From Chitinophagaceae bacterium (lineage in GTDB: Bacteria; Bacteroidota; Bacteroidia; Chitinophagales; Chitinophagaceae): a DNA stretch of 58,065 nt. How positions within the stretch are numbered: the stretch's first letter is position 1; each line of letters starts with the position of its first letter. The notes under the pieces are model-generated. The model worked only from the letters and a program-made list of their open reading frames with translations, did not search any database and was not told where the DNA came from. The DNA lies in assembly GCA_025449645.1 (NCBI GenBank), contig JANWIY010000137.1, forward strand, positions 1 to 58,065. Reading direction: 5' to 3'. This document shows positions 3,417 through 43,918 of this stretch, piece by piece. Made by a program: the position numbers and the translations under genes.

Positions 3417-3558
3417 GTTGATGGTTGATAGTTGATGGTTGATGGACTTCAATTGTAGGTTAACAATAAACACGAGCAATTTGCCTGACAAAGTGCAACT
3501 GAAGTAATTTACGAATTAACACAAAGGCTCCATCAACTATCAACCATCAACCATCAAC
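3417..3558. repeat. Family A inverted-repeat element, copy A1
   Basis: The left arm (3417-3446) is four 7-base units of GTTGATG type plus GA. The right arm (3529-3558) is the near-perfect reverse complement, also 30 bases. They enclose an 82-base spacer containing a smaller inverted pair (ACTTCAATTG against CAACTGAAGT). One unit in each arm reads GTTGATA, but one position apart, as expected from unit shuffling. The right arm ends three bases from the stop codon of the M20 gene. Confidence 0.85.
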
Positions 3559-3561
3559 ATC

Positions 3562-4635
3562 TCAAATAAACGCATTCAACAACTCAATATACGTCTCAAT
3601 TCCTTCCTTGATTTCATCAATATAGATAAATTCATCAGCAGTATGGCTCCTGGCCGAATCTCCGGGTCCCATTTTCAATGCGGGAAAGGGCATGAGGGCT
3701 TTATCGGATGTGGTTGGCGAACCGTAATACCCCCTGCCCAGGGCAATGCCTGCTTTTACCAGCGGATGATCAAGGGGAATGGAAGTAGACTTCATCCTGG
3801 TCGTGCGCGGTTTGAAATGACTTTTCAGATTGAGCTTCAGCGCGTCCAGGATCTCTTCAAAACTGTACAATTCGTTTACCCGAACGTCCATAACATATTT
3901 ACATTGTGCAGGCACTACGTTATGCTGTTTATTTTCTGTATCTATAACGGTTACGCTCATACGCGTTTCGCCCAGTAATGCGCTTTTCTTCCCGAACCGG
4001 TAATTACGTATCCACTCTATGTCTTCAATCGCTTTGTACAAGGCATTCTCCCCTTCATTTCTTGCGGCGTGGCCCGGCCGGCCGGATGCGACGCAATCGA
4101 TCACCATCAGCCCTCGTTCGGCAACGGCCATTTCAAGCCTGGTTGGTTCTCCAACAATACCGAAATCAATCTGACCCAGGTATGGAAGTACGAGCTCAAT
4201 GCCGTTTACGCCACTGATCTCTTCCTCTGCGCTGGCAGCAAATACCACATTGTGCTTCAGGTCCTCACTATGATAATAATGCAGAAAAACGGCAATTAGG
4301 CTTACCAGGCAGCCGCCGGCATCATTGCTGCCCAGTCCGTATAGCTTCCCTTCCTTCACGGTTGGCGTAAAAGGGTCCATACTGTAATTCTTATTTGGCC
4401 GTACGGTATCGTGATGGGAGTTTAACAGAATACTCTGCCTTGAGGCGTGATAATTCTTGTTCCGGGCGTAAATATTATTTCCAACTCGCGCGAAGGGTAC
4501 CTGGTGGCGTTCAAAAAAAGCACAGATGAGTTCAGCAGTATCATTTTCTTCTTTTGAAAAAGAGGGTGTGGCGATCAATTCCTTCAAAAGGCTTGTAGCT
4601 TCTGACTTCAAAGATTCAAGGGATAAATTACTCAT
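3562..4635 (-). CDS. M20-family N-acyl-ornithine/citrulline deacylase (ArgE-like)
   Basis: A 357-residue cytoplasmic zinc hydrolase that should remove the N-acyl group from the arginine intermediate. M20 metal ligands are visible: SHHDTV (H74, D76), GSNDAGG (D105), the AEEE catalytic pair near residue 137, and a C-terminal His in ARSHTADEF. It overlaps the acylglutamate kinase gene by 8 bases. Next to an acylornithine carbamoyltransferase, the expected substrate is N-acetyl- or N-succinyl-citrulline rather than acylornithine (inference from known Bacteroidota and Xanthomonas pathways). Sequence alone does not fix which acyl group. Confidence 0.85.
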   Translation of the reverse strand: MSNLSLESLKSEATSLLKELIATPSFSKEENDTAELICAFFERHQVPFARVGNNIYARNKNYHASRQSILLNSHHDTVRPNKNYSMDPFTPTVKEGKLYGLGSNDAGGCLVSLIAVFLHYYHSEDLKHNVVFAASAEEEISGVNGIELVLPYLGQIDFGIVGEPTRLEMAVAERGLMVIDCVASGRPGHAARNEGENALYKAIEDIEWIRNYRFGKKSALLGETRMSVTVIDTENKQHNVVPAQCKYVMDVRVNELYSFEEILDALKLNLKSHFKPRTTRMKSTSIPLDHPLVKAGIALGRGYYGSPTTSDKALMPFPALKMGPGDSARSHTADEFIYIDEIKEGIETYIELLNAFI

Positions 4636-5413
4636 GGCTGATGGTTGTTCCCGCTTTTCCGGTTAAAAGGTTTCCGAGGTCCTCTGCTTTTCCTATGATG
4701 ACTTTTTTAACTCCATGGTCAATGGCCGCAAAAGCATTATCCAGTTTTGGTATCATCCCCGCAAAGATTTTCTTTGACTCCTTAAGTTCTTCAAAATACA
4801 AGTGGTTGATTGAAGGGATTACAGATTTTTCGTCGTCCACATTCAATAAAACACCAGCTTTTTCGAAGCTGTATATAAGCCGCACCTGAAACGCACCGCT
4901 CATGGCTTTCGCTATTTCCTGTGCAATCGTATCGGCATTGGTATTCAGCAACTGGTTTTTGCCGTCGTGCGTGATCGGCGCCATTACAATGGTCAATCCC
5001 TGGTGCAGCAGAGCTCCCAGCCATTCTGCATTAACATGATCAATGTCTCCCGCTAAGCCATAATCTACTTGCGAGCGAACCCTTTTGTGTGCCAATATGG
5101 AGTTCCCGTCAGCACCGCAGATGCCGGTTGCATTGCATTGGAGCGATTGCAATCGGGCGACAATATTTTTATTGATATACCCTGCATAAACCATCGTCAT
5201 GATCTTGAGTGTTTCCGCGTCCGTTAGCCGGCGGCCATCAACAAATTGCTGTGGGATACCCATTTTCTCTGCCATCCGGGTAGCCATTTTTCCTCCACCA
5301 TGAACCAGGATCTTTTTGGCAGGGATAGCGGCAAATTTTTTAAGAAAAGAGAAAAGCGCAATTTCTTCATCAATGATATTTCCCCCGATCTTTATGACAT
5401 AAAGGTCTTCCAT
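4628..5413 (-). CDS. argB: N-acylglutamate kinase
   Basis: Amino-acid-kinase family enzyme of 261 residues that phosphorylates N-acetyl- (or N-succinyl-) glutamate, the second step of arginine synthesis. Visible motifs are the N-terminal VIKIGGNIID nucleotide loop, VHGGGKMAT for substrate binding, FVDGRRLTD, and GMIPKLDNA near the C-terminus. It starts three bases after the carbamoyltransferase stop and overlaps the deacylase start, typical of tight translational coupling in one operon. I see no N-terminal extension of the kind used for arginine feedback in some homologues. Confidence 0.9.
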   Translation of the reverse strand: MEDLYVIKIGGNIIDEEIALFSFLKKFAAIPAKKILVHGGGKMATRMAEKMGIPQQFVDGRRLTDAETLKIMTMVYAGYINKNIVARLQSLQCNATGICGADGNSILAHKRVRSQVDYGLAGDIDHVNAEWLGALLHQGLTIVMAPITHDGKNQLLNTNADTIAQEIAKAMSGAFQVRLIYSFEKAGVLLNVDDEKSVIPSINHLYFEELKESKKIFAGMIPKLDNAFAAIDHGVKKVIIGKAEDLGNLLTGKAGTTISHE

Positions 5414-5416
5414 CCG

Positions 5417-6382
5417 CTAAAATTGAGATTGAAGGATATCACTTAAAACGGCCTGCGCAGCCCATACGCGGTTTCCCGCCTGCATGGTAACAATGCTGTA
5501 CGGACCATCCAGCACTTCATCGCTGAGTTCCACATTTCTGCGCACCGGAAGGCAATGCATTACTTTAGCTTTATTGCTCACGCGCAATTTCTCATCAGTC
5601 AGCATCCATTCCGGGTCATTGGTATAAATTTTACCATAATCCTTATACGTGCTCCAGTTCTTCACGTATACAAAATCAGCATTTTTCAAAGCCTCATCCT
5701 GGTCATGCGTAATCCTTGCTCCTTTGGTAAACGCGGGGTCCAGTTCATAATCTTCCGGATGGGTAATTACAAAATCCGCCTTGCCCCAGGCATTGATCCA
5801 TTGTGAAAAGCTATTGGCAACGCATTGCGGCAGCGGCTTCACATGCGGGGCCCAGGTAAGTACGATCCGGGGTCTTTTTATTGACAGATCCGATGTCATC
5901 GATTCCGTAATGGTAATTATATCTGTCAGACTTTGCAATGGGTGCAGTGTTGCACTCTCCATGCTCACTACCGGAATGCCCGCGTATTTTACAAATTGAC
6001 GGATATATAATTCACTGTAATCGTCTTCCTTGTTTTTCAGGGAAGGGAAGGTGCGGATGCAGAGGATATCAAAATATTTTCCCAGCACGGGCGCTGCGTC
6101 CTTAATATGTTCAACCGTATTTCCGCTCATGATGGCTTCTTCTTCAAACTCAAGCGCCCAGCCTTCTTTGTCAACATTGAAAATGATGGGCTCCAAACCC
6201 AACTGACGCGCAGCCACCTGCGTGCTGAGCCGGGTACGGAGACTTGGATTCAAAAAAAGCAGACCGATCCTTTTACCTTCCCCGAGGTTTTTGTCTGCCA
6301 GCGGATTTTTCTTGTAATACAAAGCTTTATTGATCAGCTTGTCCAGGTCAGCAACATCATCTATGGAAATAAAATTTTTCAT
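5417..6382 (-). CDS. argF': N-acyl-L-ornithine carbamoyltransferase (AOTCase/SOTCase type)
   Basis: A 321-residue transcarbamylase. The carbamoyl-phosphate loop reads NPSLRTRLST (SLRTR instead of the STRTR of true ornithine transcarbamylases) and the C-terminal motif is MHCLPVRRNVE, both typical of the acylornithine branch. It transfers carbamoyl to the side-chain amine of an N-acylated ornithine, giving N-acylcitrulline. The residue I recall as separating the two substrates (Pro90 in the Bacteroides succinyl enzyme, Glu92 in the Xanthomonas acetyl enzyme) aligns with Val90 here, so the acyl group is unresolved. It overlaps the upstream aminotransferase by four bases. Confidence 0.9.
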   Translation of the reverse strand: MKNFISIDDVADLDKLINKALYYKKNPLADKNLGEGKRIGLLFLNPSLRTRLSTQVAARQLGLEPIIFNVDKEGWALEFEEEAIMSGNTVEHIKDAAPVLGKYFDILCIRTFPSLKNKEDDYSELYIRQFVKYAGIPVVSMESATLHPLQSLTDIITITESMTSDLSIKRPRIVLTWAPHVKPLPQCVANSFSQWINAWGKADFVITHPEDYELDPAFTKGARITHDQDEALKNADFVYVKNWSTYKDYGKIYTNDPEWMLTDEKLRVSNKAKVMHCLPVRRNVELSDEVLDGPYSIVTMQAGNRVWAAQAVLSDILQSQF

Positions 6383-7545
6383 GCCTGACTTACCAGATTT
6401 GCAGTTGAGGTTAAGTGGTTGATCTCTTCTGTTAAGGATTCCAGAAATTCTTGAGCCTCTTTTTTTCTGAGGGCCAGTGACGGAAGCAACCGGATGGTAT
6501 TTGGTTTTGATTCGCCCGTGAATACCTGTTGGTGGTGTAAAAGATGCTTGCGCAGATCTTTTAATTCTCCGTCAACGTCAAAGCCGATCATCAGCCCCTT
6601 TCCTCTGAGGTTTTTGAGCTCTTTAATGTCCCCTAAAGCATTCATCAGGAAATCGCCAGTCGCCTTCGCATTTTCCATCAGCTTTTCTTCTTCCAATACT
6701 TCAAGAACTGCCAGGGCCGCAGCGCAGGCCAGGTGGTTGCCGCCGAAAGTTGTGCCCAGCATGCCATGTTTTGCCTTCAGATGAGGAGCGATCATAATGC
6801 CGGCGACCGGAAATCCATTTCCCATTCCCTTTGCCATGCTGTAAATATCAGCGTTGATACCGGCGTGATCGTGAGAGAAAAATTTTCCTGTTCTTCCATA
6901 TCCGCATTGAACACTGTCTGCAATAAATACCACGTTATGCTCAGAACAGAGAGAGCGGATCTTTTGCAGGAAAGAAAGATCGGCAACATTAATGCCGCCA
7001 ACGCCCTGAATGCCCTCAATGATAACTGCAGCCGTTTCATTTCCGTGGTTTGAAAAATATTCCTCCAGCGCCTGCTCATCATTGAAAGGGAGAAAAATAA
7101 CATTTTCGGTTTGATTTACCGGAGCGACTATGGCAGGATTATCGGTAGCGGCCACGGCCAGAGACGTTCTTCCATGAAAAGATTTTCTGAATGCAACTAT
7201 TTTTTTTCTGCCATTGTGAAAGGAAGCGAGCTTGAGCGCATTTTCGTTGGCCTCCGCACCGGAGTTGCAAAGGAATAACTGGTAGTCATCCTTGCCGGAA
7301 ACCTTTCCGAGTTTTTTTGCGAGTTCGGCTTGTAAAGGAATATTGACCGAATTGGAATAGAAAGCCACCTGATTCAGCTGCTGTGTAATGCGGGATACAA
7401 AATGCGGATGGGTATGTCCAATTGAAATGACCGCATGGCCGCCGTACATATCCAGGTATTGCTGACCGGCATCATCCCAGAGATAAGAACCTTTTGCCCT
7501 GGTAATGGTGATATTATTGATCGGATATACGTCGAATAAATTCAT
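6379..7545 (-). CDS. argD: Acylornithine aminotransferase
   Basis: PLP-dependent class III aminotransferase of 388 residues that converts N-acylglutamate semialdehyde to N-acylornithine with glutamate as donor. Seen in order: YLDMYGGHAV near the N-terminus, the phosphate-binding NSGAEANENALKLA, IADSVQCGYGRTG with the PLP-ring Asp, MAKGMGNGFPV with the Schiff-base Lys, and TTFGGNHLACAAA. It is separated from argC by 119 bases carrying family A copy A2, and its stop codon overlaps the start of the carbamoyltransferase gene (ATGA). Confidence 0.93.
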   Translation of the reverse strand: MNLFDVYPINNITITRAKGSYLWDDAGQQYLDMYGGHAVISIGHTHPHFVSRITQQLNQVAFYSNSVNIPLQAELAKKLGKVSGKDDYQLFLCNSGAEANENALKLASFHNGRKKIVAFRKSFHGRTSLAVAATDNPAIVAPVNQTENVIFLPFNDEQALEEYFSNHGNETAAVIIEGIQGVGGINVADLSFLQKIRSLCSEHNVVFIADSVQCGYGRTGKFFSHDHAGINADIYSMAKGMGNGFPVAGIMIAPHLKAKHGMLGTTFGGNHLACAAALAVLEVLEEEKLMENAKATGDFLMNALGDIKELKNLRGKGLMIGFDVDGELKDLRKHLLHHQQVFTGESKPNTIRLLPSLALRKKEAQEFLESLTEEINHLTSTANLVSQA

Positions 7546-7577
7546 TTTGCCTGATTTTAATATTTACTCTTTTTTAG

Positions 7578-7649
7578 GTTGATGGTTGATGGTTGATGGT
7601 TGATGGATTTCAGGTGCGAATTCCCAAACAAAGTCCATCAACCATCAAC
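7578..7649. repeat. Family A inverted-repeat element, copy A2
   Basis: The left arm (7578-7607) is four perfect GTTGATG units plus GA, 30 bases. The right arm (7634-7649) is two reverse-complement units plus two bases. The 26-base spacer holds CAGGTGCGAATTC and matches the spacer of copy A4 at 23 of 26 positions, which makes these two copies clearly related. The element lies in the argC-argD gap, 15 bases beyond the argC stop codon. Confidence 0.88.
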
Positions 7650-7664
7650 GATTACCTCATAGTA

Positions 7665-8660
7665 TCAAAAATAATTCGCCTTCAACCTCAGTCCAGTGCA
7701 CTCATCCAGGTCAAACATCAGGTTCATATTCTGAACTGCCTGTCCGGATGCGCCCTTTAACAGATTATCGAGCGCTGAATGGATCACCAGAACATCATCT
7801 GCTTTCTCCAGCTGGAGTATACATTTATTTGTATTCACCACTTGTTTCAGAAAAATCGGCTCATCGGTGACCACAGTGAATGGATGATCAGCATAAAAAT
7901 CCTTGTAGACCTCTGTGAGTTCCTTCATGTCCCTTTTGCAATTCACCTGCGAGCTCACAAAGATTCCCCGCGCAAAATCTCCGCGCCAGGGCACGAAGTG
8001 AACGCCCGGGCCCGATTTGGAAAATCCGTGCTGCAGCTGGGCCAGTGACTGATTCACTTCAGCGAGGTGCTGGTGCGTCAAAGTTTTATAAGCCTGAATA
8101 TTGTTGACCCGCCAGGAAAAATGAGCTGTAGAAGAAAGACCCTGGCCTGCGCCGGTGGATCCTGTGATGCCGGTCGTGAATACTTCAGTAAGCCATTTCA
8201 TTTTCGCCAGGGGCAGCAACCCCAACTCAATAGCAGATGCAAAACATCCGGGGTTTGATATATTCCTTGCCCTCTTAATTTCATTCCTGTTTAATTCTGG
8301 CAAACCGTATATGAAAGGAAATTCATTTCCGGGATAATGATTATTGCCGCTGATCCGAAAATCCTGAGACAGATCAATAATCCTGATGTTTTTTTCAAAT
8401 GGATTTTCTGCGAGAAATTTTCTCGCTGCACCGTGACCCACGCACAAAAAAATGACATCAATATCCTGCTGCACTTCGTCCTGAAAACATATTCCCGTAT
8501 CTCCCGCGAGATCGTGGTGAACGCTGGAAACCTTTTTGCCTGCATTGCTCTTACTCTGAACGAAGACGATTTCGGTATGCGGATGATGGATCAGTATTCT
8601 GATCAATTCGCCACCGGTATATCCTGCGCCGCCGCTAATGCCAATTCTTATTTTCTTCAT
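7665..8660 (-). CDS. argC: N-acyl-gamma-glutamyl-phosphate reductase
   Basis: NADPH-dependent reductase of 331 residues that makes N-acylglutamate semialdehyde. It has the GISGGAGYTGGELIRIL dinucleotide-binding start, a SNPGCFAS motif with the catalytic Cys, and the HQHLAEVNQ and HFVPWRGDFARG stretches seen in the short (type 2-like) ArgC proteins. It overlaps the argG stop by four bases. The operon context fixes the assignment; the preferred acyl group (acetyl or succinyl) cannot be read from the sequence. Confidence 0.93.
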   Translation of the reverse strand: MKKIRIGISGGAGYTGGELIRILIHHPHTEIVFVQSKSNAGKKVSSVHHDLAGDTGICFQDEVQQDIDVIFLCVGHGAARKFLAENPFEKNIRIIDLSQDFRISGNNHYPGNEFPFIYGLPELNRNEIKRARNISNPGCFASAIELGLLPLAKMKWLTEVFTTGITGSTGAGQGLSSTAHFSWRVNNIQAYKTLTHQHLAEVNQSLAQLQHGFSKSGPGVHFVPWRGDFARGIFVSSQVNCKRDMKELTEVYKDFYADHPFTVVTDEPIFLKQVVNTNKCILQLEKADDVLVIHSALDNLLKGASGQAVQNMNLMFDLDECTGLRLKANYF

Positions 8661-9871: not shown

Positions 9872-9912
9872 TGATCCCGACAGGTTTAATTCTTAATTAT
9901 TCATCCTGTTTC

Positions 9913-10626
9913 TTATTTCCCTTTGATCATGCGGAACAGGCCGAGAACAGCCGGCACCATATCCACTTTTTCCTTGCGGATCAGATGTTTAAGCAGCCCC
10001 CATTGCTTGATCTTCATAAAGCGTTCGTAGAGCTTGCTTTTTTTATTGAAATCACTCGAAGTGTCTTCCGGCTTGTTATTTACTTCTGCAGGATCATAAA
10101 GCATGGCGGTGCACATGCAGTTTTTGCGATCCTTACTCATCAGGATCTCATAGTTCACGCAGCTTTTGCAGCCGGCCCAAAACGCCTCATCCTGTGTGAG
10201 CTCAGAATAGGTGACCGGCTCATAACCCAGGTCTGAATTGATTTTCATCACGGCGAGGCCGGTTGTCAGCCCAAAGATCTTGGCGTTTGGATAATGCTTG
10301 CGGCTCAGATCGAAAATCTTTTTCTTGATCTTTTTTGCCAGCCCGCTCTTCCGGAAGGTGGGCGCTACGATGAGCCCGGAATTGGCAACGTATTCGCCAT
10401 GGCTCCAGGTTTCGATATAGCAAAAGCCGGCCCAGATATCATCCTCGGTAAAGGCGATCACGGCTTTGCCTTCACGCATTTTGGCTTTGATATAATCAGG
10501 GCTTCTTTTTGCGATGCCGGTTCCACGCGCCTTTGCGGAAGATTCCATTTCGTCGCAGATGATCTGGGCAAAATCCTGATGGGATGCATCTGCGGTGAGT
10601 ATCTTGAACTTTTGTTCTTGTTCCAT
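9913..10626 (-). CDS. GNAT-family acyltransferase, probable N-acylglutamate synthase
   Basis: First gene of the arginine operon, 237 residues from the ATG at 10626 (the frame is open 14 codons further). Residues ~10-145 look like a GNAT fold: a GFCYIETWSHGEYV strand pair, then the acetyl-CoA loop VAPTFRKSGLAKKIKKK (R/Q-x-x-G-x-A type), then NSDLGYEPV. A C-terminal part of about 90 residues with a Cys cluster (WAGCKSCVNYE, KNCMCTAML) and a basic tail is not part of the standard fold. No argA or argJ is seen in the operon, so this gene is the best candidate for the first acylation of glutamate; that is inference from context. Confidence 0.65.
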   Translation of the reverse strand: MEQEQKFKILTADASHQDFAQIICDEMESSAKARGTGIAKRSPDYIKAKMREGKAVIAFTEDDIWAGFCYIETWSHGEYVANSGLIVAPTFRKSGLAKKIKKKIFDLSRKHYPNAKIFGLTTGLAVMKINSDLGYEPVTYSELTQDEAFWAGCKSCVNYEILMSKDRKNCMCTAMLYDPAEVNNKPEDTSSDFNKKSKLYERFMKIKQWGLLKHLIRKEKVDMVPAVLGLFRMIKGK

Positions 10627-10653
10627 TGAATAATTACATGAGATAAAAAATGC

Positions 10654-10765: not shown

Positions 10766-10793
10766 GAAAAAATAACGCAGGGGGGCGCTACAA

Positions 10794-10966: not shown

Positions 10967-11043
10967 ATAATTTGAAAATTTGATGATGCTTTGCCTACCC
11001 AAGCGCAGCGAAGGTTGGGAAAATTTGAAAATGTGAAAATGCT
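10967..11043. repeat. Family B intergenic repeat, copy B0
   Basis: Two blocks of AATTTGAAAATTTG and AATTTGAAAATGTGAAAATG words flank a 30-odd base centre with CCCAA...TTGGG pairing. The same word set recurs at 15684, 38068 and 48845. The element lies between the arginine leader and the GGGPS stop codon. Confidence 0.55.
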
Positions 11044-15651: not shown

Positions 15652-15682
15652 TCCCCGCATTTTTATGCGGGGATCTTTATTT
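15652..15682 (+). terminator. Intrinsic terminator after nrdJ
   Basis: A perfect 9-bp stem (TCCCCGCAT / ATGCGGGGA) with a TTTT loop is followed by a T-rich tract. It lies 41 bases beyond the nrdJ stop codon and is the clearest terminator in the window. Confidence 0.85.
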
Positions 15683-15683
15683 A

Positions 15684-15796
15684 ATGGAGAATGAGGAGTT
15701 GAAAATGTGGAAATATGTAAATGTTTAAATGTGCAAATTTGGAAAGACAGGTTGGCGCAACTTTTCATTCTCCATTCTCAATTGTACATTCTCCAT
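15684..15796. repeat. Family B intergenic repeat, copy B1
   Basis: Starts with an AATGGAGAATGAGGAG block, passes through GAAAATGTGGAAATATG-type words and ends (15766-15796) in CATTCTCC units that are the reverse complement of the starting GGAGAATG unit, so the ends can pair. It directly follows the nrdJ terminator. Confidence 0.6.
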
Positions 15797-15904
15797 GAAA
15801 ACCTGGTTTTCCAGAATTGGGACGATTTTTCGGTATATCTGGCAAGGAAATTGGTATTTATTCAGCAATTTTCACGAATTCCGATCGTTAATCTATAACC
15901 TCAA

Positions 15905-17459: not shown

Positions 17460-17936
17460 ATGATCATCCATTTCAAATATGATAAAAAACAAGTGCTGCA
17501 CGCCCTGAGGTATCATTTTATTTCCCGGCCCGAGATAAAGATCCTGCTGGTAATCCTTAATTTATTTACAATTCTGAGTGCTGTCCTTTTCTATCTGCAC
17601 AAAATTCAACCTATTTCCTTTCTCACATTTTCCTTATTGTGGTTCGTATTGCTGATCGCAATCTGGAGATTATTGCCATTGAGCGTTTATAAGCGGTCAC
17701 AAACATTCCTCGATCGGTTCAGCATGGATTTCAACGAGAAGGACGTGATATTGCAGACCGAACGGGGATCGCATACCTGGCAGTGGGATGATTTCAGTTC
17801 TTTTCTGGAAAGTCCTTATTTCTTTCATCTGTACTTTAACAGCCGTTCCTTTTTCCTTGTACCGAAAGATGCTTTTAGCGACCTGGGTACGCTGCAGGAA
17901 GCGAGAGCACTGTTGAAGGAAAAATTGAGGAGGTAG
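17460..17936 (+). CDS. YcxB-like membrane protein
   Basis: A 158-residue protein. Two membrane segments (about residues 27-46 and 52-73) precede a soluble C-terminal part of the YcxB kind, with FSMDFNEKDVILQTERGSHTWQWDDFSSFLESPYFFHLY and FFLVPKDAF visible in pieces. The function of this family is unknown. It starts one base after the phosphatase stop and ends two bases before family A copy A3. Confidence 0.7.
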   Translation: MIIHFKYDKKQVLHALRYHFISRPEIKILLVILNLFTILSAVLFYLHKIQPISFLTFSLLWFVLLIAIWRLLPLSVYKRSQTFLDRFSMDFNEKDVILQTERGSHTWQWDDFSSFLESPYFFHLYFNSRSFFLVPKDAFSDLGTLQEARALLKEKLRR

Positions 17937-17937
17937 G

Positions 17938-18070
17938 GTTGATGGTTGATATTTAGGTTGATAGTTGATGGACTTTAAAGGAAACTCAACGCCTTCTGTG
18001 TCAACCAAAACATATATCCATAACCCATCACCCATAATCCATCACCCAAGTCCATCAACCACCAACAATC
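17938..18070. repeat. Family A inverted-repeat element, copy A3 (degenerate)
   Basis: The left arm (17938-17972) has four GTTGATG-type units interrupted by a five-base TTTAG insertion, ending in GA. The right side (from 18051) reads TCCATCAACC then decays to CCACCAACAATCC. Between them are further CCATCACCCA units. It fills the whole gap between two convergent genes, one base after one stop codon and about six before the other. Confidence 0.75.
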
Positions 18071-18076: not shown

Positions 18077-19714
18077 TCACGGTTTTGCCCAATCATGAAA
18101 ATAATGCGTTCCCCACAGATCGTATCTCTTCAATTCAAACGGCAGTCTTTGCTGGAAATCGTCCCAGTTGCGCGCAGATTTGGGGCTCCACAGTACCTCA
18201 CTGAGCGCCGTTACCCGTGGGAACATCATGTATTCTACTTTTGAAGGCCAGGGCATGTATTCGGTCCAGATATTGGCTTGGCCGCCGAGAATATAACGGC
18301 CATCATCAACCGGTAATTCTGCCGGAATGGGTTCATATTTATAAACTTTTTCAAGCGGGATAAATCCGCCAATGGTCAGCGAGTCATCGTGCCTGGATTG
18401 GCCATAATCAAAATAGACATAAGTAGTGGGCGTCATGATAACCGTATGCTGTTGCTTTGCCGCTTCAATGCCTCCTTTTTCCCCGCGCCAGCTCATCACC
18501 ACAGCATTGGGGGCGAGGCCGCCTTCCAGGATTTCATCCCATCCAATCAGGGTCTTGCCTTTACTGTTGATATATTTCTCCATGCGTTGAATGAAATAGC
18601 TCTGCAACTCATGTTCGTCCTTCAGGCCAAGATCATGGATTCGTTTCTGGCAAAGCGGGCATCTTTTCCAATTAGTTTTGGGACATTCATCTCCCCCGAC
18701 ATGGATGTATTTTGACGGGAACAAAAGTACTACCTCATCAATAACGTCCTGCAGGAATTGAAAAACGCTGTCCTTGCCTGCACAGAAAACGTCTTCGGCA
18801 ACGCCCCATTTTTCATAAACGATTTTACCATTTGCCTTTTTCCCATCGTCAGAAAGTATACTGTCAGGGATATTTGTTTTTTCATCGGGGAAACAACTCA
18901 ACCAGGGATAGGCGGCAATGGCCGCGCTTCCATGGCCCGGCATTTCAATTTCAGGAATGATGGTAATGTAGCGGGCAGATGCGTAAGCCACCACATCCCT
19001 GATCTGGTCCTGCGTATAGAATCCTCCATACCGCTGGTTATCACTTCCTTTCCAGGGCCGCTTGCCAATTACCGTACCGCTCCGCCAGGCCCCTACCTGA
19101 GTAAGGAGCGGATACTTTTTTATCTCGATCCTCCAGCCCTGATCTTCGGTTAAGTGCCAATGAAAATAATTCATTTTGTGGAGTGCCAGGTAATCAATAA
19201 ATCTTTTTACGAAGGAGACCGGCATAAAATGCCTTCCCACATCCAGCATTAGACCGCGGTAAGCAAAGCGCGGCCTGTCCTCAATTTGAACATCTGGAAT
19301 GGAAAGTGTTTTTGTATCGGACGGAAGAGGCAGGAGCTGTATAAGTGTTTGTATTCCGTAGAAGACTCCCGTTTCATTATCTCCTTCGATATGGACTCCT
19401 TTTTTGTCAACCGCTAAATGATATGCGCCCGGAATCGAATCATCCAGTCTTTCATAATTAAGAAAAATATTGTTATTGCCATTTGCTTTTGAGGTGGTCT
19501 GTAGAGTGAAGCCGTAGAATTGCTTCAGGTAATCGTTGAAAAAACTCACCGAATTATCCATGCCGCTTCCTTCTAAAACAATTTTGGTGGCCGGGTTCAG
19601 AGAAAAATAACCCATGGTCTTAAGCATTATTACTGAGGCGGGCTGTGGAATGATATTTACCTGCGCTTCCGCGTCGTAAACAAAAAACAAAAGGCCAAGG
19701 AGAATAAATTTCAT
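18077..19714 (-). CDS. Beta-N-acetylhexosaminidase, GH20 family
   Basis: An exported glycosidase of about 545 residues from the ATG at 19714, which gives the signal peptide MKFILLGLLFFVYDAEAQ. A GH20b-like N-terminal domain (residues ~20-150) precedes the catalytic barrel. Visible motifs: LMLDVGRHFMP, FHWHLTEDQGWRIE, IPEIEMPGHG and HVGGDECPKTNW with the paired Asp-Glu that polarises and protonates the substrate. It should release terminal GlcNAc or GalNAc from glycans or chitin fragments in the periplasm or at the surface. Divergent from the YeeE-like gene. Confidence 0.93.
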   Translation of the reverse strand: MKFILLGLLFFVYDAEAQVNIIPQPASVIMLKTMGYFSLNPATKIVLEGSGMDNSVSFFNDYLKQFYGFTLQTTSKANGNNNIFLNYERLDDSIPGAYHLAVDKKGVHIEGDNETGVFYGIQTLIQLLPLPSDTKTLSIPDVQIEDRPRFAYRGLMLDVGRHFMPVSFVKRFIDYLALHKMNYFHWHLTEDQGWRIEIKKYPLLTQVGAWRSGTVIGKRPWKGSDNQRYGGFYTQDQIRDVVAYASARYITIIPEIEMPGHGSAAIAAYPWLSCFPDEKTNIPDSILSDDGKKANGKIVYEKWGVAEDVFCAGKDSVFQFLQDVIDEVVLLFPSKYIHVGGDECPKTNWKRCPLCQKRIHDLGLKDEHELQSYFIQRMEKYINSKGKTLIGWDEILEGGLAPNAVVMSWRGEKGGIEAAKQQHTVIMTPTTYVYFDYGQSRHDDSLTIGGFIPLEKVYKYEPIPAELPVDDGRYILGGQANIWTEYMPWPSKVEYMMFPRVTALSEVLWSPKSARNWDDFQQRLPFELKRYDLWGTHYFHDWAKP

Positions 19715-19817
19715 GGCAAACAATTTTTGAATACTGCAAACTTATTCTTTTCCACGAACGCCAGCGCTGTTTTTGAGATTTTGTGCGGATATTTGTCAAT
19801 TCATCAATTGCAACTTT

Positions 19818-27398: not shown

Positions 27399-27470
27399 TG
27401 ACCTCGCCAGGAATCGAACCTGGATCTGGAGCTTCGGAAACTCTTATACTATCCGTTGTACGACGAGGCC
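27399..27470 (-). tRNA. tRNA-Arg (anticodon CCG)
   Basis: A 72-base cloverleaf on the minus strand: acceptor stem GGCCTCG/CGAGGTC with A as discriminator, D arm GTAC/GTAT, anticodon loop TTCCGAA giving CCG (reads CGG Arg codons), and T arm CCAGG-TTCGATT-CCTGG. The CCA end is not encoded. The outer pair of the anticodon stem is A-C, the only clear mismatch. Its 5' base overlaps the last base of the marC stop codon. The accessory, IS-bearing segment lies at its 3' side. Confidence 0.93.
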
Positions 27471-28080: not shown

Positions 28081-28159
28081 GTTGACCGTTGACGGTTGAC
28101 AGTTGACTGATTCCAGGTGCGAATTCACAACCAAAGTCCGTCAACCGTCAACCGTCAAC
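28081..28159. repeat. Family A inverted-repeat element, copy A4 (C variant)
   Basis: The left arm (28081-28110, 30 bases) is four units of GTTGACN type plus GA. The right arm (28137-28159) is three matching units of CGTCAAC type plus two bases. Where the other copies have GTTGATG, both arms here carry the C/G version, so the arms have changed together. The 26-base spacer matches that of copy A2 at 23 positions. It ends five bases from the stop codon of the BtuB-like gene. Confidence 0.88.
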
Positions 28160-28164
28160 CAACT

Positions 28165-30095
28165 TCACAAGGTGAAGTTCACCCCAACCATAAAATTAAA
28201 CCGCTTGCTATTATACCCGTAAATATCAAAATACTGCTGATTGGTGATGTTCTGCAAATCAGCATATATCCGGGCGTGAGGCAATTGCCAGCCTGCGAAA
28301 AAGCCCAGGGTGTAATAAGGAGCCATGGGATCGGGACCAATATCATATAGGCCCTTTGGACGGGCACCAACATATTTAAAGGATGGCGCCAGCGTGAGTT
28401 GGGAAATGGGCTGCAGATTCAGGCGACTGTTCACAGTAAAATCCGGACGGCGGTAAAGATTATTTGTTTTGACACCCATATCCGTTCCTTCGCCGGTCAC
28501 GAAACTGAAATTGCTTACCCAGTTTGCAATACCGCCCAGGCGCATATTGCTTTCGATTTCGAATCCATAGTCATGCTGACTGCTCTCGTTCACATAGATC
28601 GAGGCGAATGTATTCGGATCGGTAAAGAAGATAATCAGGTTGCCGACATCCCTTTTGAAAGCGGCTATCCTGAATACGGATCCGCCATCATTGCTTTCCG
28701 TCTGCACGCCAATTTCATAGGTTGTGCTGGTCTCCGGTTTAAGCGCTTTGTTTCCATATTCGCTGTACAACTGGTAAAGGGAAGGAATCTTATAAGCAGA
28801 GGAAATATTTACGAATATCTTGCTGTGGTCACCGGTGTTGAAAGAAGGATTGATGGTATAGGTGAAATTATTTCCATAAATGGAGTGATGATTTACCCGC
28901 ATACCGGCTTCAAAATTAAATCCGTGAAGACCCGTGACCAGGTAAGAAGCGTAAGCGGAGTATTGATCAATATGGACGCTGTCGCCATTGAGAGCCTCTG
29001 CATACGGACCGAAGCTGCCGAGGCTGTAATACGACTGATCCGTTTTTTGATTGATGAATTGAATTCCACTTACCAGTTGCATGTGTTCTGTAAAACGGAA
29101 GTTTGCGTAAGATTCTGCCGTTAAATTGGATGCGAGGTACCTTCCATGGGAATAATAGGCGGCAGGATCGGACCGGTCCGTGCTGTCGTCAGTAAAATAT
29201 CTCCGGGAATACTGATAGCTTACCTGCGTGTTCCAGACAATATTTTTTTTATGATAGTTGAAATAAAGAGCGCCCATGTTATTTTTATTCTTGCCTCCGT
29301 AATCTTTGTCATCTGTGAAAGCGCCTTCGTCAAGACCGAAATGATAATCACTCACAGTGCCCAGTAATTTCATGTTGAATGCGTCACAGAATGTAAATTT
29401 CAGTTCGGCCTGGAGATTATTCTGGGAGAACCCATCCCTATCAAATCCTTTCTTTCCCGCACTGTCGTAAGCCGAGGAAAATCCATCGCTTCCCTGGTAA
29501 TTGTATTGAATTTTATATCCCAGTTTTTTATGGGTTCCGTCAACTCCTGCGCCTGCCCGGAGTGTGTTGTACGTGCCGTAGCTGAAGTTCCCGTTTGCGG
29601 CCAGTGGTTTCGCACTTTCTTTCTGAGAAATATCTGTACCAAACCGGCAACGGCATCGCTGCCCCAGATGGTGCTTTGGCCACCCTTGAGTATTTCGATT
29701 CGATCAATCTGCTCCAGCGGAATGCTGTTCAGGTCGAAGGTATTGCTGATCTGGGATGGATCTGTGACGGGAACACCGTCTACGACGATCAGGAGGTTGC
29801 CTGCATCGGCGCCTCTGAAATAATTCTCGATATTGGTGCCCATCGTATTGTTGCTTCCGATCAGCATGAAGCCGGCCTGGGTATTCAGCAATTCGGTGAG
29901 CGTGTGGCCGGCATTGTTCCGGATGGTTTCAGAATCAATCACTGTGATAATCTTACCCGTTTGTGATTGTTTGATACTGGTTTTTGAGCCCGTCACCACT
30001 ACTTCATCCAGTTGTTTGGATCTGACGGAATCTTCTTGCGCATTCGCCTGCAAGGCAATACTGATCGCCAGCAGCGGGAAGTAAATTTTTTTCAT
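28165..30095 (-). pseudogene. btuB: BtuB-like TonB-dependent receptor, broken by a one-base frameshift
   Basis: Two frames on the minus strand together give a ~643-residue outer-membrane receptor. The first part has a signal peptide (MKKIYFPLLAISIALQANAQ), a QLDEVVVTGSK TonB box and a plug domain (VVDGVPVTDPS, RIEILKGGQSTIWGSDAVAG). Near 29621-29630 the frame fails: ESAKPLAANGNFSYGTYNT and the rest of the barrel continue in the next frame, as if one base were lost in ATATTTCTCAGAAAG. The barrel then runs intact to the C-terminal Phe-containing FMVGVNFTL. The cobalamin riboswitch upstream marks it as a corrinoid receptor. Either a true mutation or an assembly error. Confidence 0.8.
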
Positions 30096-30242
30096 GCTCA
30101 TTCTTCGTTTTAATTGTTTTGTTAAGAAGAATAAGCTTTCGATCCAATGAAATAAGTAGAAATGAAAGTTCTGCAACAAATGCTGTTTGCAAAAACCTGC
30201 ATCTCCGGCCTTTCACCCGAAAGCTCAGTGATAAAAAAGTAC

Positions 30243-30420
30243 ACCTGGCAGGTCTTCTGGCTTGTTCCCTGTTTACTGCCTTCCCGCCCCGGATAAGCCG
30301 GAACAGTGGCTGCAGCGTAAACAGTTTCAGGTTCATCACCTGAAGAACTCACAGCTACGGGGATAGCGCCGGTTTTACACCGGACTTCCCTTTTAACCCC
30401 GAACATTCGGGGACCAGATT
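30243..30420 (-). promoter_or_regulatory. Cobalamin (adenosylcobalamin) riboswitch
   Basis: On the minus strand the conserved elements appear in order: AAAAGGGAAGTCCGGTG, then CCGGCGCTATCCCCGTAGCTGTGAG, a variable hairpin (TTCAGGTGATGAACCTGAA), the B12 box GCAGCCACTG, then GGCGGGAAGGC and the closing GCCAGAAGACCTGCC. It lies about 150 bases before the receptor start at 30095 and should switch the receptor off when B12 is plentiful. Confidence 0.93.
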
Positions 30421-30463
30421 TATGCAAATGTAAAGGAGGGAAACAGAATACAAAAAGAATTTA

Positions 30464-35898: not shown

Positions 35899-38064
35899 AT
35901 GCTCATGAGAAAAGGAATTCTCCAAAGGCAGAGAGATGCAACGGATTGCGGGGCTGCCTGTCTAGCTTCCGTGGCAGCTAACTACGGACTCCGGATTCCA
36001 GTCACCCTTGTCCGTCAATATGCCGGAACGGATAAACTGGGAACAAATCTTTTCGGATTGATGGAAGCGGCTAAACGTCTGCATTTCCAGGCTAAAGCAG
36101 TAAAAGCCAATCCTGCAGATCTCGGGGAGATACCCTTACCCGCCATCTTCCACATGGTTCAGGATGCCGGGCTTCAGCATTTTGTAGTGGTTTACCGCAT
36201 CCGCAGGAACCATGTGTTCTATATGGATCCGGCCAGAGGAAAAATAGTCAGGCAATCGTCGAATGCATTTAAGAAAGCCTGGACCGGCGTACTGATGCTT
36301 TTATTACCCGAGGCAAATTTCCGAAGGGAAAATCAGCATACACCCGTTTTCAAAAGATTCCGGAAGTTGATCGACCCCCACCGGACTATGATTGTACAGG
36401 CATTATTCGGTTCGCTGGCATATACGATACTTGGACTGGCGACCTCGATTTATATAGAAAAGATCGTTGATTTCGTACTTCCTGATGAAAACAGGAAACT
36501 GATGAATCTGCTGGGTCTGATCATGGTCATCATTTTACTCTTTCAAATCGGGATCGGGTATTTCAAGTCCCTGATCATGCTTAGAACCGGGCAGCAGATC
36601 GATGCGCAACTAATCCTTGGATATTACAAGCACCTGATGGGTCTTCCGCAGACATTTTTTGACAGCATGCGGGTTGGGGAAATTATTAGCCGCGTTAACG
36701 ATGCCGTGAAAATCCGTGCCTTTATTAACGATACGGCCTTATATATGATCATTCAAATGATGACGATGGTATTTAGCGTGGCTGCGATGTTTTTATATTA
36801 CTGGAAGCTCGCCCTGGCCATGTTGCTCATGATACCTGTCTATGTGCTCTTATACATGATCAGTAACAGGATCAATGCAAAATGTCAGCGGAAAATGATG
36901 GAAACAGGAGCAGCGCTGGAAAGCCAGCTGATAGAAAGCATCCGCGGTGCCGGAACAATAAAGAGATTTGGTACTGAAAATTATTTTAGCCGGCAGACTG
37001 AAAAAAAATTCATTCCGCTGATGCGGGCGGTACACAATGCAGGGAAATCAACTATCAGGCTCGGTAGTCTCTCTGAACTAAGTACCCGGTTGATAACTAT
37101 TATCATTTTATGGATTGGAAGTTATTTCGTGATGGACCGGCAGTTATCCCCCGGGGCGCTTTTGTCTTTTTATGCACTGGCTGGCTATTTCACAACGCCT
37201 GTTCAGGCCCTGATCGGAATGAATAAGAATATGCAGGACGCATTGATCGCCGCCGACCGGTTATTCGAAATCATTGATCTGGAAACAGAAAAAACCGAAG
37301 GAAGTTATTGTACGGCTTCAGCTATATCACCGGGCAACATCGAATTCAGAAATGTGCAATTTCGTTATGGTTTCAGAACAAAAGTATTTGACGGATTGAA
37401 TCTCACTATTGAAAAGCACCAGATCACAGCCATCCTGGGGGAGAGCGGTTCGGGAAAATCCACACTTCTTTCCCTCATACAACGGTTGTACCCGCTGAAT
37501 GAGGGAACTATATTCATTGGGGGAACGGATATCCGATATGCAAGCCATGCGGCCCTTCGCCGGATGATTGCCGCTGTTCCCCAGCAAACGGATCTTTTCA
37601 AGGGCACCCTGATGACCAATATTGCTTTAGGTGAGGAAAATCCGGATATGGAAACTGTCTTGCAGTTATGCAGGCGGCTGGGATTGGAAGAATTTATTGA
37701 TAACCTTCCCGGACAATATGAGGCGGAGATCCAGGAACAGGGCGTTAATCTCTCAGGGGGCCAAAGACAGCGGATCGCCATCGCCAGAGCATTATACCGG
37801 AAACCGGAAATTCTAATCCTGGACGAGGCTGAATCCGCACTCGATCCAGAAAGTGAACAAAAAGTAAATGAAACAATTCAATGGTTTTATGGTCAGAAAA
37901 AAACCGTCATTTTCATTACCCATCGTTTGTCGACCATAAAAGGCTGCCATCGGATCATTCTGCTTAAAGACGGAAAGCTCGCCGCACAAGGATCACACGA
38001 AAACCTGATCGCGGAGAACGGGGAATACGCGAGGTGGTGGGAGGCGAAGGAGGAAATGTGGTAA
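35899..38064 (+). CDS. Peptidase-containing ABC exporter (C39 peptidase-TMD-NBD)
   Basis: A 721-residue exporter. Residues 1-135 form a C39 cysteine peptidase with Cys17 (TDCGAACL), His94 (LQHFVVVY) and Asp110 (YMDPARG) in place, so it should cut the GG leaders during export. Next come about six membrane segments (residues ~165-430) and the ATPase part with Walker A GESGSGKST, signature LSGGQRQRIAIARAL and a Walker B ending LILDEAESALD (Glu where Thr is more usual). It starts five bases after the HlyD gene. Substrates are most likely the two adjacent GG peptides. Confidence 0.92.
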   Translation: MLMRKGILQRQRDATDCGAACLASVAANYGLRIPVTLVRQYAGTDKLGTNLFGLMEAAKRLHFQAKAVKANPADLGEIPLPAIFHMVQDAGLQHFVVVYRIRRNHVFYMDPARGKIVRQSSNAFKKAWTGVLMLLLPEANFRRENQHTPVFKRFRKLIDPHRTMIVQALFGSLAYTILGLATSIYIEKIVDFVLPDENRKLMNLLGLIMVIILLFQIGIGYFKSLIMLRTGQQIDAQLILGYYKHLMGLPQTFFDSMRVGEIISRVNDAVKIRAFINDTALYMIIQMMTMVFSVAAMFLYYWKLALAMLLMIPVYVLLYMISNRINAKCQRKMMETGAALESQLIESIRGAGTIKRFGTENYFSRQTEKKFIPLMRAVHNAGKSTIRLGSLSELSTRLITIIILWIGSYFVMDRQLSPGALLSFYALAGYFTTPVQALIGMNKNMQDALIAADRLFEIIDLETEKTEGSYCTASAISPGNIEFRNVQFRYGFRTKVFDGLNLTIEKHQITAILGESGSGKSTLLSLIQRLYPLNEGTIFIGGTDIRYASHAALRRMIAAVPQQTDLFKGTLMTNIALGEENPDMETVLQLCRRLGLEEFIDNLPGQYEAEIQEQGVNLSGGQRQRIAIARALYRKPEILILDEAESALDPESEQKVNETIQWFYGQKKTVIFITHRLSTIKGCHRIILLKDGKLAAQGSHENLIAENGEYARWWEAKEEMW

Positions 38065-38067
38065 CGG

Positions 38068-38387
38068 AATTTGAAAATTTGAAAATTTGAAAATGAGGAA
38101 GACAATGTGTTAATGAGGGAATGTGGAAACGTGAAAATGTGCTCATGTAATTTGAAAATGAGGAAGGCAGTGTGTTATTGTGAAAATGTGCTTATGTGGA
38201 AATGCTTCGTTTAGAGAAGCGAAGCGAAAGTGGGGTAGTCTAAATTTGAGGTTGCACATGTGTATATAATTGAATTGGAGGATTTGGAACTTTCTTATTT
38301 GGATTATAAAATAAACGAATTTCCGGACGTCTGACTAAATTTGAAGGTCAGTAAAGAATTGAGCTGCCCTCATTTTCACATTATCAC
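38068..38387. repeat. Family B intergenic repeat, copy B2
   Basis: Begins four bases after the exporter stop with three AAAATTTG units, continues through AAATGAGG, AATGTGTTAATGAGG and GAAAATGTGCTCATG words to about 38200, and ends at 38367-38387 in CCCTCATTTTCACATTATCAC, the reverse complement of those words. A GCTTCG/CGAAGC hairpin sits at 38203-38224. No gene is seen in the 332-base gap. Confidence 0.6.
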
Positions 38388-38396
38388 TTTTCCTCC

Positions 38397-39560: not shown

Positions 39561-39584
39561 TGGCATTTTTAAGGTTTTTTTTGA

Positions 39585-39614
39585 TTGAGAATGAGAATGT
39601 ATTCTTTACTTTAG
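39585..39614 (+). promoter_or_regulatory. Candidate promoter of the tolC unit
   Basis: A TTG (39585-39587) is followed after 19 bases by TACTTTAG (39607-39614), near the Bacteroidota consensus TTG-N19-TAnnTTTG, about 70 bases before the tolC start codon. Confidence 0.4.
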
Positions 39615-39681
39615 CAAAATTTCTGGCAACACCTTGCTCCGGCAGGCTGTGCAGGGGAAGAATTCCCAATAAACTTGTTAC

Positions 39682-41136: not shown

Positions 41137-41158
41137 AACACCTTCATAACCTGACAGC

Positions 41159-42550: not shown

Positions 42551-42592
42551 CCCCGTCCAAAGGCTGTATATTTATACCAAATTCAAGCGCAA

Positions 42593-43630
42593 ATGCGTTT
42601 TGGGATCATAGGAAGCGGCAGTTGGGCAACCGCGCTGGCAAAGATTCTCACTGATACCGGCCATTCGATAAACTGGTGGATCCGGAATGAATCGATCATC
42701 CGGCATCTGGAAAGCCGGAGGCACAACCCGCAATACCTCAGCTCGGTTTATTTTGATACCGCTAAATTAAAACTCAGCACCAATCTGCCCGAGGTGATAC
42801 GCGATTCCAGTTGCCTGATTGTAGCCTTTCCATCCGCTTATATCGAAAAGATTTTTGAAGAACTTCCGGCCGATGTCTTTCAGAATAAGCAAGTGCTGTC
42901 TGCAGTCAAAGGCATTCTGCCGGGTAAAAACCTGCTGCTAAATGAATACCTCAAGAACCGGTTTCAGATCGGATTGGACAGGTATTTCACACTTATGGGA
43001 CCCTGCCACGCCGAAGAGATTGCGGCTGAAAAGTTATCTTATCTGACTTTTTCAGGCGTAAACGAAACCTCAACGGGAGAACTTGCGTCTAATTTCTCGA
43101 CGGACTACCTGAATACCATTACGAATACAGACTTATATGGCGTTCAATATGCCGCCGTGCTGAAGAATATCTATGCCCTTGGGGCAGGCATGGCGCACGG
43201 ACTTGAATATGGTGACAATTTCCTCAGCGTTTTCATTGCCAATTGCGCTGATGAAATGGCCGGATTTCTGCATAAAGCCGGTATCCGCCATATCGAGGTA
43301 GGAATTCACGACAGGGAGGCTTTGCACCCGGCGAAAAAAAGCGCCAATTATGCGGCTTCCGTGTACCTCGGCGATTTATTGGTGACCTGTTATTCCCTTT
43401 TCAGCCGTAATCGCAATTTCGGCAACATGATCGGAAAAGGTTACTCGGTGAATGCGGCAAAGTTGGAATTGAATATGGTGGCAGAGGGGTATAATGGCAG
43501 CAGTTGCATTTATCACATAAACAGGTTGCTGAAAGCCGACATGCCGATAGCCGAAACGGTCTACCGGATCCTATGGGAAAATGTTAATGTTAGGCAGGGG
43601 TTTAAACAAATGGAGTCTTTGTTGGTCTGA
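42593..43630 (+). CDS. gpsA: Glycerol-3-phosphate dehydrogenase, NAD(P)-dependent
   Basis: 345-residue cytoplasmic enzyme that reduces dihydroxyacetone phosphate to sn-glycerol-3-phosphate for phospholipid synthesis. The N-terminal GIIGSGSWATALA is the dinucleotide fold; later SAVKGILPGKN, MGPCHAEEIA and AAVLKNIYALGAGMAHGLEYGDN with the catalytic Lys are clear. It lies 42 bases after the adaptor gene. It supplies the sn-1 phosphate acceptor of ordinary lipids, the mirror image of the one used by the GGGPS-like enzyme. Confidence 0.93.
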   Translation: MRFGIIGSGSWATALAKILTDTGHSINWWIRNESIIRHLESRRHNPQYLSSVYFDTAKLKLSTNLPEVIRDSSCLIVAFPSAYIEKIFEELPADVFQNKQVLSAVKGILPGKNLLLNEYLKNRFQIGLDRYFTLMGPCHAEEIAAEKLSYLTFSGVNETSTGELASNFSTDYLNTITNTDLYGVQYAAVLKNIYALGAGMAHGLEYGDNFLSVFIANCADEMAGFLHKAGIRHIEVGIHDREALHPAKKSANYAASVYLGDLLVTCYSLFSRNRNFGNMIGKGYSVNAAKLELNMVAEGYNGSSCIYHINRLLKADMPIAETVYRILWENVNVRQGFKQMESLLV

Positions 43631-43647
43631 ACTATAAAGGAAATTTT

Positions 43648-43797
43648 ATGATGCCGCTTTCTTTTCAGGGCTTTGGGTTTACCGCCCTTCTCATCATGGT
43701 AGCGGTGCTTTCTGCTTCGCAGTTGGTGAGGTATCTGAGGGAAAGATTTGAACATAAACATGGTTCGGCAGATAAAATAAAGGTTGATGGTAGATAG
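43648..43797 (+). CDS. Possible small membrane protein closed by repeat A5
   Basis: A 49-residue frame: MMPLSFQGFGFTALLIMV with one membrane span, then a basic tail. The last five codons, including TAG, lie inside the family A repeat that starts at 43783. The hydrophobic start is plausible, but the gene has no recognised family and may be a remnant cut by the repeat. Confidence 0.35.
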   Translation: MMPLSFQGFGFTALLIMVAVLSASQLVRYLRERFEHKHGSADKIKVDGR

Positions 43798-43918
43798 TTG
43801 ATGGTTGATGGACCTTCGTGAAAGTCAGCTTCCCAGATAGGATTGATCGTCATAGTATGGCCTGCAAAATTACATTTTGGTAATTGCACCTGATTTCCAT
43901 CAACTATCAACCATCAAC
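43783..43918. repeat. Family A inverted-repeat element, copy A5
   Basis: The left arm (43783-43812, 30 bases) is four GTTGATG-type units (the second reads GTAGATA) plus GA. The right arm (43896-43918) is three reverse-complement units plus two bases. The spacer is 83 bases; near its right end, read in reverse, is a TCAGGTGCAATT similar to the A2/A4 core. The right arm ends 11 bases from the hemW stop codon. Confidence 0.85.

Follow-up and report, generated by a model that had tools for sequence, protein, structure and literature searches.

What are the five inverted repeats, built of 7-base GTTGATG-type units, that lie just past stop codons in a 58,065-nucleotide (nt) stretch of the genome of a Chitinophagaceae soil bacterium (contig JANWIY010000137.1, assembly GCA_025449645.1; the whole stretch is called the window below), and what might they do there? 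The five copies were confirmed and lie far outside chance expectation: the two-unit pattern GTTGAYNGTTGAY has 20 matches in the window against 0.02 expected in shuffles, and of the 24 close inverted repeats that were listed in the window 10 coincide with them (I2, I3, I6, I7, I8, I9, I12, I13, I15 and I16). They belong to a family with a common core, placed at stop codons and with arms that match each other, for which sites are occupied in a sister species, one core is clearly flipped there, and the same plan is found in relatives in other words. We read this family, with a probability of roughly 0.45, as high-copy gene-end hairpin repeats that act at mRNA 3' ends, a function inferred from their position and from the matching of their arms.

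The repeat family and its place at gene ends

The sequence-only reading of the window had put the repeats at 3417, 7578, 17938, 28081 and 43783, just beyond the TGA of minus-strand genes, and all five were recovered there, respectively 3, 15, 9, 4 and 11 bases past the gene, with TGA as the stop in each case. The 30-base left arm that it described (4 x 7 + 2 bases, ending in GA) is present at 3417, 7578, 28081 and 43783, the copy at 17938 being irregular. The spacers of 7578 and 28081 are a conserved 32-nt core common to other copies, those of 3417 and 43783 match nothing else in the sampled sequence, and the 17938 spacer holds words from another repeat family.

The genome that carries the window (G000; 3.59 Mb in 190 contigs, 86% complete) was sampled as 100 stretches plus the window (1.457 Mb), the stretches being the first 20 kb of contigs, except C27, picked around known matches. 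The elements are dispersed in this genome and share one plan, a heptad arm (GTTGAYN)n, a 32-nt core and a reverse-complement arm, which combines terminal inverted repeats with period-7 arrays. With strictly defined arms the first 60 stretches gave 21 inverted pairs, seven of them with exactly 32 bases between the arms, and an iterated profile search gave 32 ungapped full copies in the 1.457 Mb, with the consensus GTTGATGGTTGATGGACTTTAGGTGYGAATTCGCACCTGAAATCCATCAACCATCAAC when read from the upstream gene (where one exists). The words differ among copies (GTTGATG, GTTGACG, GTGGATG, GTAGATG and GGTTATG). Arm length, which had been taken as constant, has a mode of four heptads (left arm in 28 and right arm in 33 of 65 full copies) within a range of 2-8, two heptads being the smallest arm that the count could register; the spread goes part of the way to the freely varying arms that the same reading had named as evidence against itself. 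The core is asymmetric, one half type coming first from the upstream gene in 21 copies against 7 at the column pair that shows this best (p = 0.013, computed for that chosen column pair).

Abundance across genomes was assessed with the two-unit pattern, counted as overlapping matches with several per element, and with a covariance model of the short form, counted on both strands so that one element can count twice. The pattern matches 424 times in G000 against 11 for its reversed control, and it is also frequent in the heptad-rich congeners G088 (361), G066 (291), G071 (204), G072 (102) and G064 (86); the remaining 27 of the 33 genus genomes have 0 to 24 matches, and in G079 the reversed control is commoner than the pattern (39 vs 23). 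The covariance model was matched by 150 of 150 scored candidates in G000, 149 of 150 in G088 and 112 of 150 in G066, had 2 to 10 matches in six further genus genomes and none in 24 of the 33; the last include G064 and G071, the heptad arrays of which therefore come without a recognisable form of the core. Beyond the genus, 12 of 296 genomes of a phylum sample, G000 included, match at E 1e-4 under stricter filters, the others weakly (best 7.9e-9), and a three-unit pattern is present in nine of 60 family genomes, again counting G000. In copy number and place the family is thus a high-copy extragenic palindrome. Another family genome, G009, is rich in the reversed control of the three-unit pattern (18 + 23), probably a different heptad word family.

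Element positions were taken from crude open reading frame (ORF) calls. The 64 GTTGATG-like elements of the G000 sample lie in tandem (19), convergent (19) or divergent (6) gaps, at contig edges (7) or across a called ORF (13); the last 13 were excluded from the position counts, and in most of those listed the overlap looks like an effect of taking the longest ORF, whose start then extends upstream past the element. Heptad arrays inside longer frames do exist (four), the clearest being at L062 8221-8282, where the same-direction pyrimidine-side arrays CCATCAAC and CCGTCAAC lie in a 354-codon open frame, as if an in-frame insertion had been tolerated.

For 18 of the 19 tandem-gap elements the upstream stop is nearer than the downstream start, at a median of 2 bases (p = 8e-5), which supports the earlier proposal of a positioned 3'-end element; when all word families are taken, 35 of 43 tandem elements are nearer the stop. 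Among gaps of at least 40 bases there are 19 elements in 101 convergent gaps vs six in 166 divergent ones (p = 6e-5), and of the 20 inverted word pairs that occupy convergent gaps, 16 end no more than 35 bases from the stop on each side. Altogether 66 of 70 tandem or convergent elements lie within 35 bases of a stop, for which random placement in the same gaps gave 53.7 and never more than 61 in 2000 simulations. Some genes terminate inside an arm, with overlaps of 5, 12 or 19 bases, the spacing expected if every heptad holds a TGA.

Within a copy, the arms also match each other more closely than they match the arms of other copies. Over 64 copies from G000, G066 and G088 own arms agree at 11.73 of 13 positions vs 10.71 for shuffled partners, and none of 5000 shuffles was as high. 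An alignment of 32 copies showed 36 cells changed on both sides against 20.8 when shuffled (0/500), 15 pairs changed on both sides against 10.6 (5/500) and 39 further pair types against 34.7 (42/500), in shuffles of a kind that relatedness alone can exceed. Same-word array pairs in the G000 sample are inverted in 83 cases vs six direct, a stronger skew than in relatives (24 vs nine). A word-free detector, which pairs tandem arrays when the unit word of one is the reverse complement of the other's, yielded 77 non-overlapping inverted pairs in the same sample, whilst 200 relocations, in which arrays were moved at random inside their own contigs, gave a mean of 7.6 and a maximum of 16. With at most one unit mismatch the periods of these 77 pairs are 7 (61), 8 (15) and 14 (one); allowing two mismatches added one pair each at periods 5 and 6. 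The pairs of relatives have periods of 7 (13 of 21), 8 (four), 6 (two), 9 (one) and 11 (one).

Sister species and the same plan in other words

G000 was compared with its sister species G066. The flanking sequence was alignable for 14 of the 35 G066 elements and for 16 of the 85 G000 elements, and at the alignable sites repeat words stand in both genomes, apart from L064/L315, where G066 has N bases; at L299/L079, L302/L115 and L307/L084 3765 the shared site is in single-armed, long-spacer or other-word form. The sites with a full core placed in both genomes make nine ortholog pairs (L299, L302, L309, L315 and L316 were left out), which are identical at 197 of 234 arm positions and, in direct register, at 209 of 288 core positions; for comparison, four-fold sites of the ArgC-like gene are identical at 76 of 123 positions between the two species. 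The words of L301/L130 differ plainly, those of several other pairs only slightly or not at all.

For three of the nine pairs an inverted core gives the better fit. In L303/L062 it matches at 30 of 32 positions inverted vs 22 direct, the best of 31 paralogs reaching 26, and a flip of the core in place is well supported. A flip is probable in L307/L084, where 26 positions match inverted vs 17 direct and one of the 31 paralogs does as well. The evidence for L301/L130 is equivocal (22 inverted vs 16 direct), since 22 of the 31 paralogs fit as well and replacement by another copy is equally likely. Plastid small inversions comprise 5-50 bp between inverted repeats of 11-24 bp (PMC2939885) and offer a likeness, in that related species are found to differ in the orientation of a short spacer flanked by inverted repeats; L303/L062, with its spacer inverted between collinear flanks, follows the same pattern, whereas the plastid cases are single-locus hairpins and ours belong to a dispersed family of word arrays.

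The plan is found more widely than the words. A sample of relatives was fetched by ArgC as 80 loci from named records, mostly metagenome-assembled genomes (MAGs) and strains of Chitinophagaceae (1.386 Mb); the ArgC-like protein of the window is 90% identical to one in the MAG 'Chitinophagaceae bacterium isolate palsa_953'. These loci hold 20 inverted word pairs of period 7 or 8 (at most two unit mismatches), all spelled differently (AAGTACC, GTTACCG, GCTCAAC, AATTGAA, GCTGAAT and others), of which 15 are within 15 bases of a stop; two of the 20 (L217 and L218) are the argC slots of G066 and G071 and are also counted among the congener loci below.

Slots of the window were compared among congeners, the comparison covering 30 of the 33 genomes with a match for argC, 30 of 32 for hemW and 12 of 33 for the M20 peptidase gene. 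Inverted arms follow the argC-like gene in seven of the 30 loci, with the words GTTGATG in G000 and G066, GTGGATG in G088, GCTTAAC/GCGGAAC in G064, GCTTAAG in G072, GCTTGAG/GCGTGAG in G071 and GGTTAAA/GGAATAA in G079. The pairing score is clearly above the best of five shuffles in four of the seven (16-18 vs 6-11) and narrowly so in G064, G072 and G079 (11 vs 9-10), where the heptads were read by eye; the argC gap L185 holds an ordinary G+C-rich hairpin (13 vs 8 in shuffles). After the M20 gene inverted arms are present in five of the 12 loci (G000, G088, G072, G079 and G081), spelled GTATATG/GTGGATG in G088 (28 of 28 pairs), AAGCTTA in G072 and as ACGCNNA-type words, by small margins over shuffles, in G079 and G081; G084 and G073 have gaps of 2-12 bases, and L329 (wrong reading frame) and L322 (masked bases) were kept among the 12 as misses. 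The HemW-like slot has an inverted heptad pair only in G000 of the 30 loci, with single arms in G088, G071 and G072 and, at L193, L197 and L206, pairing scores of 11-12 vs 8-10 without heptad arrays. The GH20 slot was left out of the counts, the best congener proteins being 39-78% identical and most of them not clear orthologs.

These comparisons suggest, as a tentative generalisation that we would put somewhat below even odds, a Chitinophagaceae class of gene-end elements in which slot, unit length and arm pairing persist, the word is replaced and the core can invert in place, so that the pairing plan and not the sequence is inherited or selected. Apart from G000, G066 and G088, which share the core, in-place rewriting of an ancestral element and independent filling of the slots are both compatible with the data.

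Possible function, upkeep and rival explanations

In the mechanism that we propose, a short copy would place a purine-rich 5' heptad arm at or just past the stop, followed by the asymmetric 32-nt core and a complementary 3' arm. In a transcript the arms would pair into a long stem at the mRNA 3' end, and the resulting stem-loop may block 3'-to-5' decay and/or help to end transcription, one element serving both genes where genes converge. Slippage would alter the number and spelling of the words, the arms would be kept matched through template switching (copying templated by the hairpin) or through copying from one locus to another, either of which could also turn the core round, and selection would keep a pairable arm pair rather than a given word. 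Slippage and template switching would cover arm length, matching and flips; the core shared by scattered loci needs copying between loci.

A number of results weigh against this reading. No U-tract follows the arms (TTTT within 12 nt of the arm in 9 of 59 cases, background about 11%; T content 33% vs 30% in intergenic DNA), and an intrinsic terminator with a U-tract was rejected on that count. Nor is there a signal of the RNA strand: in 35 copies read in sense, G-U and A-C pairs number 70 vs 61, so that RNA-strand selection was rejected too. Stop-bearing words make up 25 of 38 distinct words read inward (nine read outward), and composition, by letter permutation, gives 25.1, which disposes of an 'all-frame stop codon' purpose. 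The halves of the core agree at 8.27 of 14 positions, less than the 8.81 of shuffled halves, and RNAalifold pairs the arms and one core pair only; the core as a maintained stem was therefore rejected. Over all word families, counting array pairs only, convergent and divergent gaps do not differ significantly (20 of 171 vs 13 of 182, p = 0.15), and the copies at 3417 and 7578 stand in a likely arginine gene cluster, which argues against strong termination.

The sister comparison adds further points of this kind. Only for three of the nine cores (L217/window, L303/L062 and L310 2732/L108) is the ortholog a closer match than any of the 31 paralogs, and for the other six descent of the core site by site is not clear because paralogs match as closely. 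The nine pairs show seven both-side pair changes vs 61 one-side changes, which makes them weak as proof of selection, and their arm pairing (204 of 234) is little above the arm identity between the species (197 of 234). Because the U-tract, transcript-strand and stop-codon tests were negative, the case for function rests on position and arm matching.

Another reading makes the elements canonical intrinsic terminators, bidirectional and built from repeats. Convergent elements with an end at each of the two stops would fit it, as would the T-rich 3' arms of sister families with AAAGTAA words, but with no U-tract after the GTTGATG-type arms, long spacers and copies inside a gene cluster we regard it as very improbable. 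A purely mutational origin, in which slippage makes the arrays, quasi-palindrome template switching makes their inverted partners and gene ends tolerate both, with neither mobility nor function, would agree with the lack of an RNA-strand signal and with published precedent: heptanucleotides are reported to be the most abundant 5-11 nt repeat class in most genomes, slippage being proposed (PMC4679880), and template switching would be expected to yield matched arms and flipped cores, as in plastid small inversions (PMC2939885). Yet it leaves unexplained the 32-nt core shared by scattered loci, the start of the arrays at the stop codon and not just anywhere in the gap, and the occupied orthologous sites between species that have diverged at the four-fold sites of the ArgC-like gene as described above, and we consider it unlikely.

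A selfish, non-autonomous mobile repeat, like a miniature inverted-repeat transposable element (MITE) or a repetitive extragenic palindromic (REP) element, deserves more weight, although we lean against it. Moved by some unnamed enzyme, it would survive after stops since insertions elsewhere do harm, and it would have no host function. The common core of dispersed copies, the range of 0 to 424 pattern matches within the genus, the congeners in which the corresponding gap is short and free of the repeat, and the harmlessness of the position just past a stop all speak for it, and since dispersed copies share a core they were copied somehow. The sequence-only reading had called the elements 'mobile, or at least positioned', and the second half of that phrase has stood up; as to mobility, no occupied/empty pair with a target duplication was found, and the alignable G000/G066 rows contained no close occupied/empty pair. 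Against mobility stand also the sites occupied in both sister species, a stop adjacency tighter than random placement gives (66 of 70 vs 53.7 expected) and the recurrence of the same plan with other words. The Y1 transposase family PF01797, present in 23 of the 33 genus genomes, had no hit in the heptad-rich G000, G066, G088, G064, G071 and G072 (86, 80, 99, 77, 58 and 74% complete), and an origin from REP elements and their REP-associated tyrosine transposases (RAYTs) is accordingly unsupported.

Even so, REP elements and bacterial interspersed mosaic elements (BIMEs) resemble our family in being high-copy extragenic palindromes near gene ends, and REP ends can supply a stop codon to flanking ORFs (PMC3733652). 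The REP hairpin carries a GTAG or GTGG tetranucleotide at its 5' foot (PMC6006769); the foot here is mostly GTTG (T stands as the third letter at column 3 in 23 of 32 copies, and at column 10 in 26 of 32), GTAG and GTGG words being a minority, the body is a heptad array, and no PF01797 gene was found in the element-rich genomes. The direct TAACTGA heptanucleotide repeats of Beggiatoaceae, Cyanobacteria and a few Bacteroidetes share the intergenic 7-base unit and have stop codons in all three frames, but in the Guaymas genome they lie mostly just upstream of start codons (PMC4679880), whereas ours form inverted pairs past stops and vary in their words. BrickBuilt, a MITE of Porphyromonas gingivalis, is another Bacteroidota element with tandem repeats and inverted ends; it has transposon-type ends and, between its leader and tail, a direct array of 23-nt units (PMC4596501), not paired inverted heptad arms at stops. 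The family thus resembles REP/BIME in copy number and place, heptanucleotide repeats in its unit and plastid inversions in its flip, and falls short of the full definition of a REP element or an intrinsic terminator. In the open-access literature, with most subscription journals outside its scope, no title or abstract opening among the matches listed describes paired inverted heptad arms at stop codons.

If a role at mRNA 3' ends is correct, the family would be a natural experiment separating structure from sequence, with many gene-end hairpins of which some are respelled in related species; its flips could serve as markers of template switching, it would be a testable candidate for setting or protecting mRNA ends in these bacteria, and it would explain a visible share of the repeats between their genes. 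With no member of the REP transposase family found in the repeat-rich genomes, the route by which the repeats spread becomes a testable question.

The window copies and other repeats

The coordinates of the five copies are collected below; the gene names argC, argD, argH and HemW are a reading from Pfam families and gene order, by which the copies at 3417 and 7578 appear to sit inside an arginine-biosynthesis gene cluster.

Table. Elements of the window and the genes that flank them (window positions; strand of genes in brackets).
Feature	Position	Strand	Parts	Flanking genes
Element 1	3417-3558	.	left arm 3417-3446 (4 heptads + GA), spacer 3447-3528, right arm 3529-3558	M20 peptidase 3562-4635 (-); Lyase_1 (argH-like) 2085-3386 (-)
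Element 2, short form	7578-7649	.	left arm 7578-7604, 32-nt core 7605-7636, right arm 7637-7649	argC-like 7665-8660 (-); class-III aminotransferase 6379-7545 (-)
Element 2 core	7605-7636	-	asymmetric imperfect palindrome; 'A half' first reading from the argC-like gene	
Element 3, irregular composite	17938-18067	.	broken left arm 17938-17972, other-family words 18018-18048, right arm about 18048-18067	convergent gap: YcxB-like 17460-17936 (+); GH20 18077-19723 (-)
Element 4, short form, GTTGACN words	28081-28160	.	left arm 28081-28107, core 28108-28139, right arm 28140-28160	after TonB-dependent-receptor barrel gene 28165-29373 (-), before MarC gene
Element 5	43783-43918	.	left arm 43783-43812, spacer 43813-43895, right arm 43896-43918	convergent side of radical SAM / HemN_C (HemW-like) 43930-45057 (-)

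Covariance model R1 scores element 2 at E 5e-24 and element 4 at E 3.2e-21, both being among the sequences from which R1 was built, and the predicted RNA folds of the five copies have z values of -3.4 to -8.3. A scan of the window against Rfam 15 gave no match on the elements; above the gathering score it returned only a cobalamin riboswitch and a tRNA, at 30230-30433 and 27399-27470 respectively.

Other repeats are present alongside the GTTGATG family. Inverted octad-like arrays (AAATGTGN, AAATTTGA) at 15680-15800, 38041-38395 and 48850-49051 of the window make up a second repeat family with the same plan, and similar pairs occur elsewhere in the G000 sample, many of them near stops. Short hairpin-like motifs (AAGCGCAGCGAAGGTTGGG / AAGCGAAGCGAAAGTGGGG) at 10996-11020 and 38203-38236 apparently represent another small repeat family. 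A third family, with AAAGTAA/AAATTAA words forming A-rich 5' and T-rich 3' arms, is found at G000 loci such as L045 11983-12105 and L060 2062-2179 and is close in shape to a bidirectional terminator.

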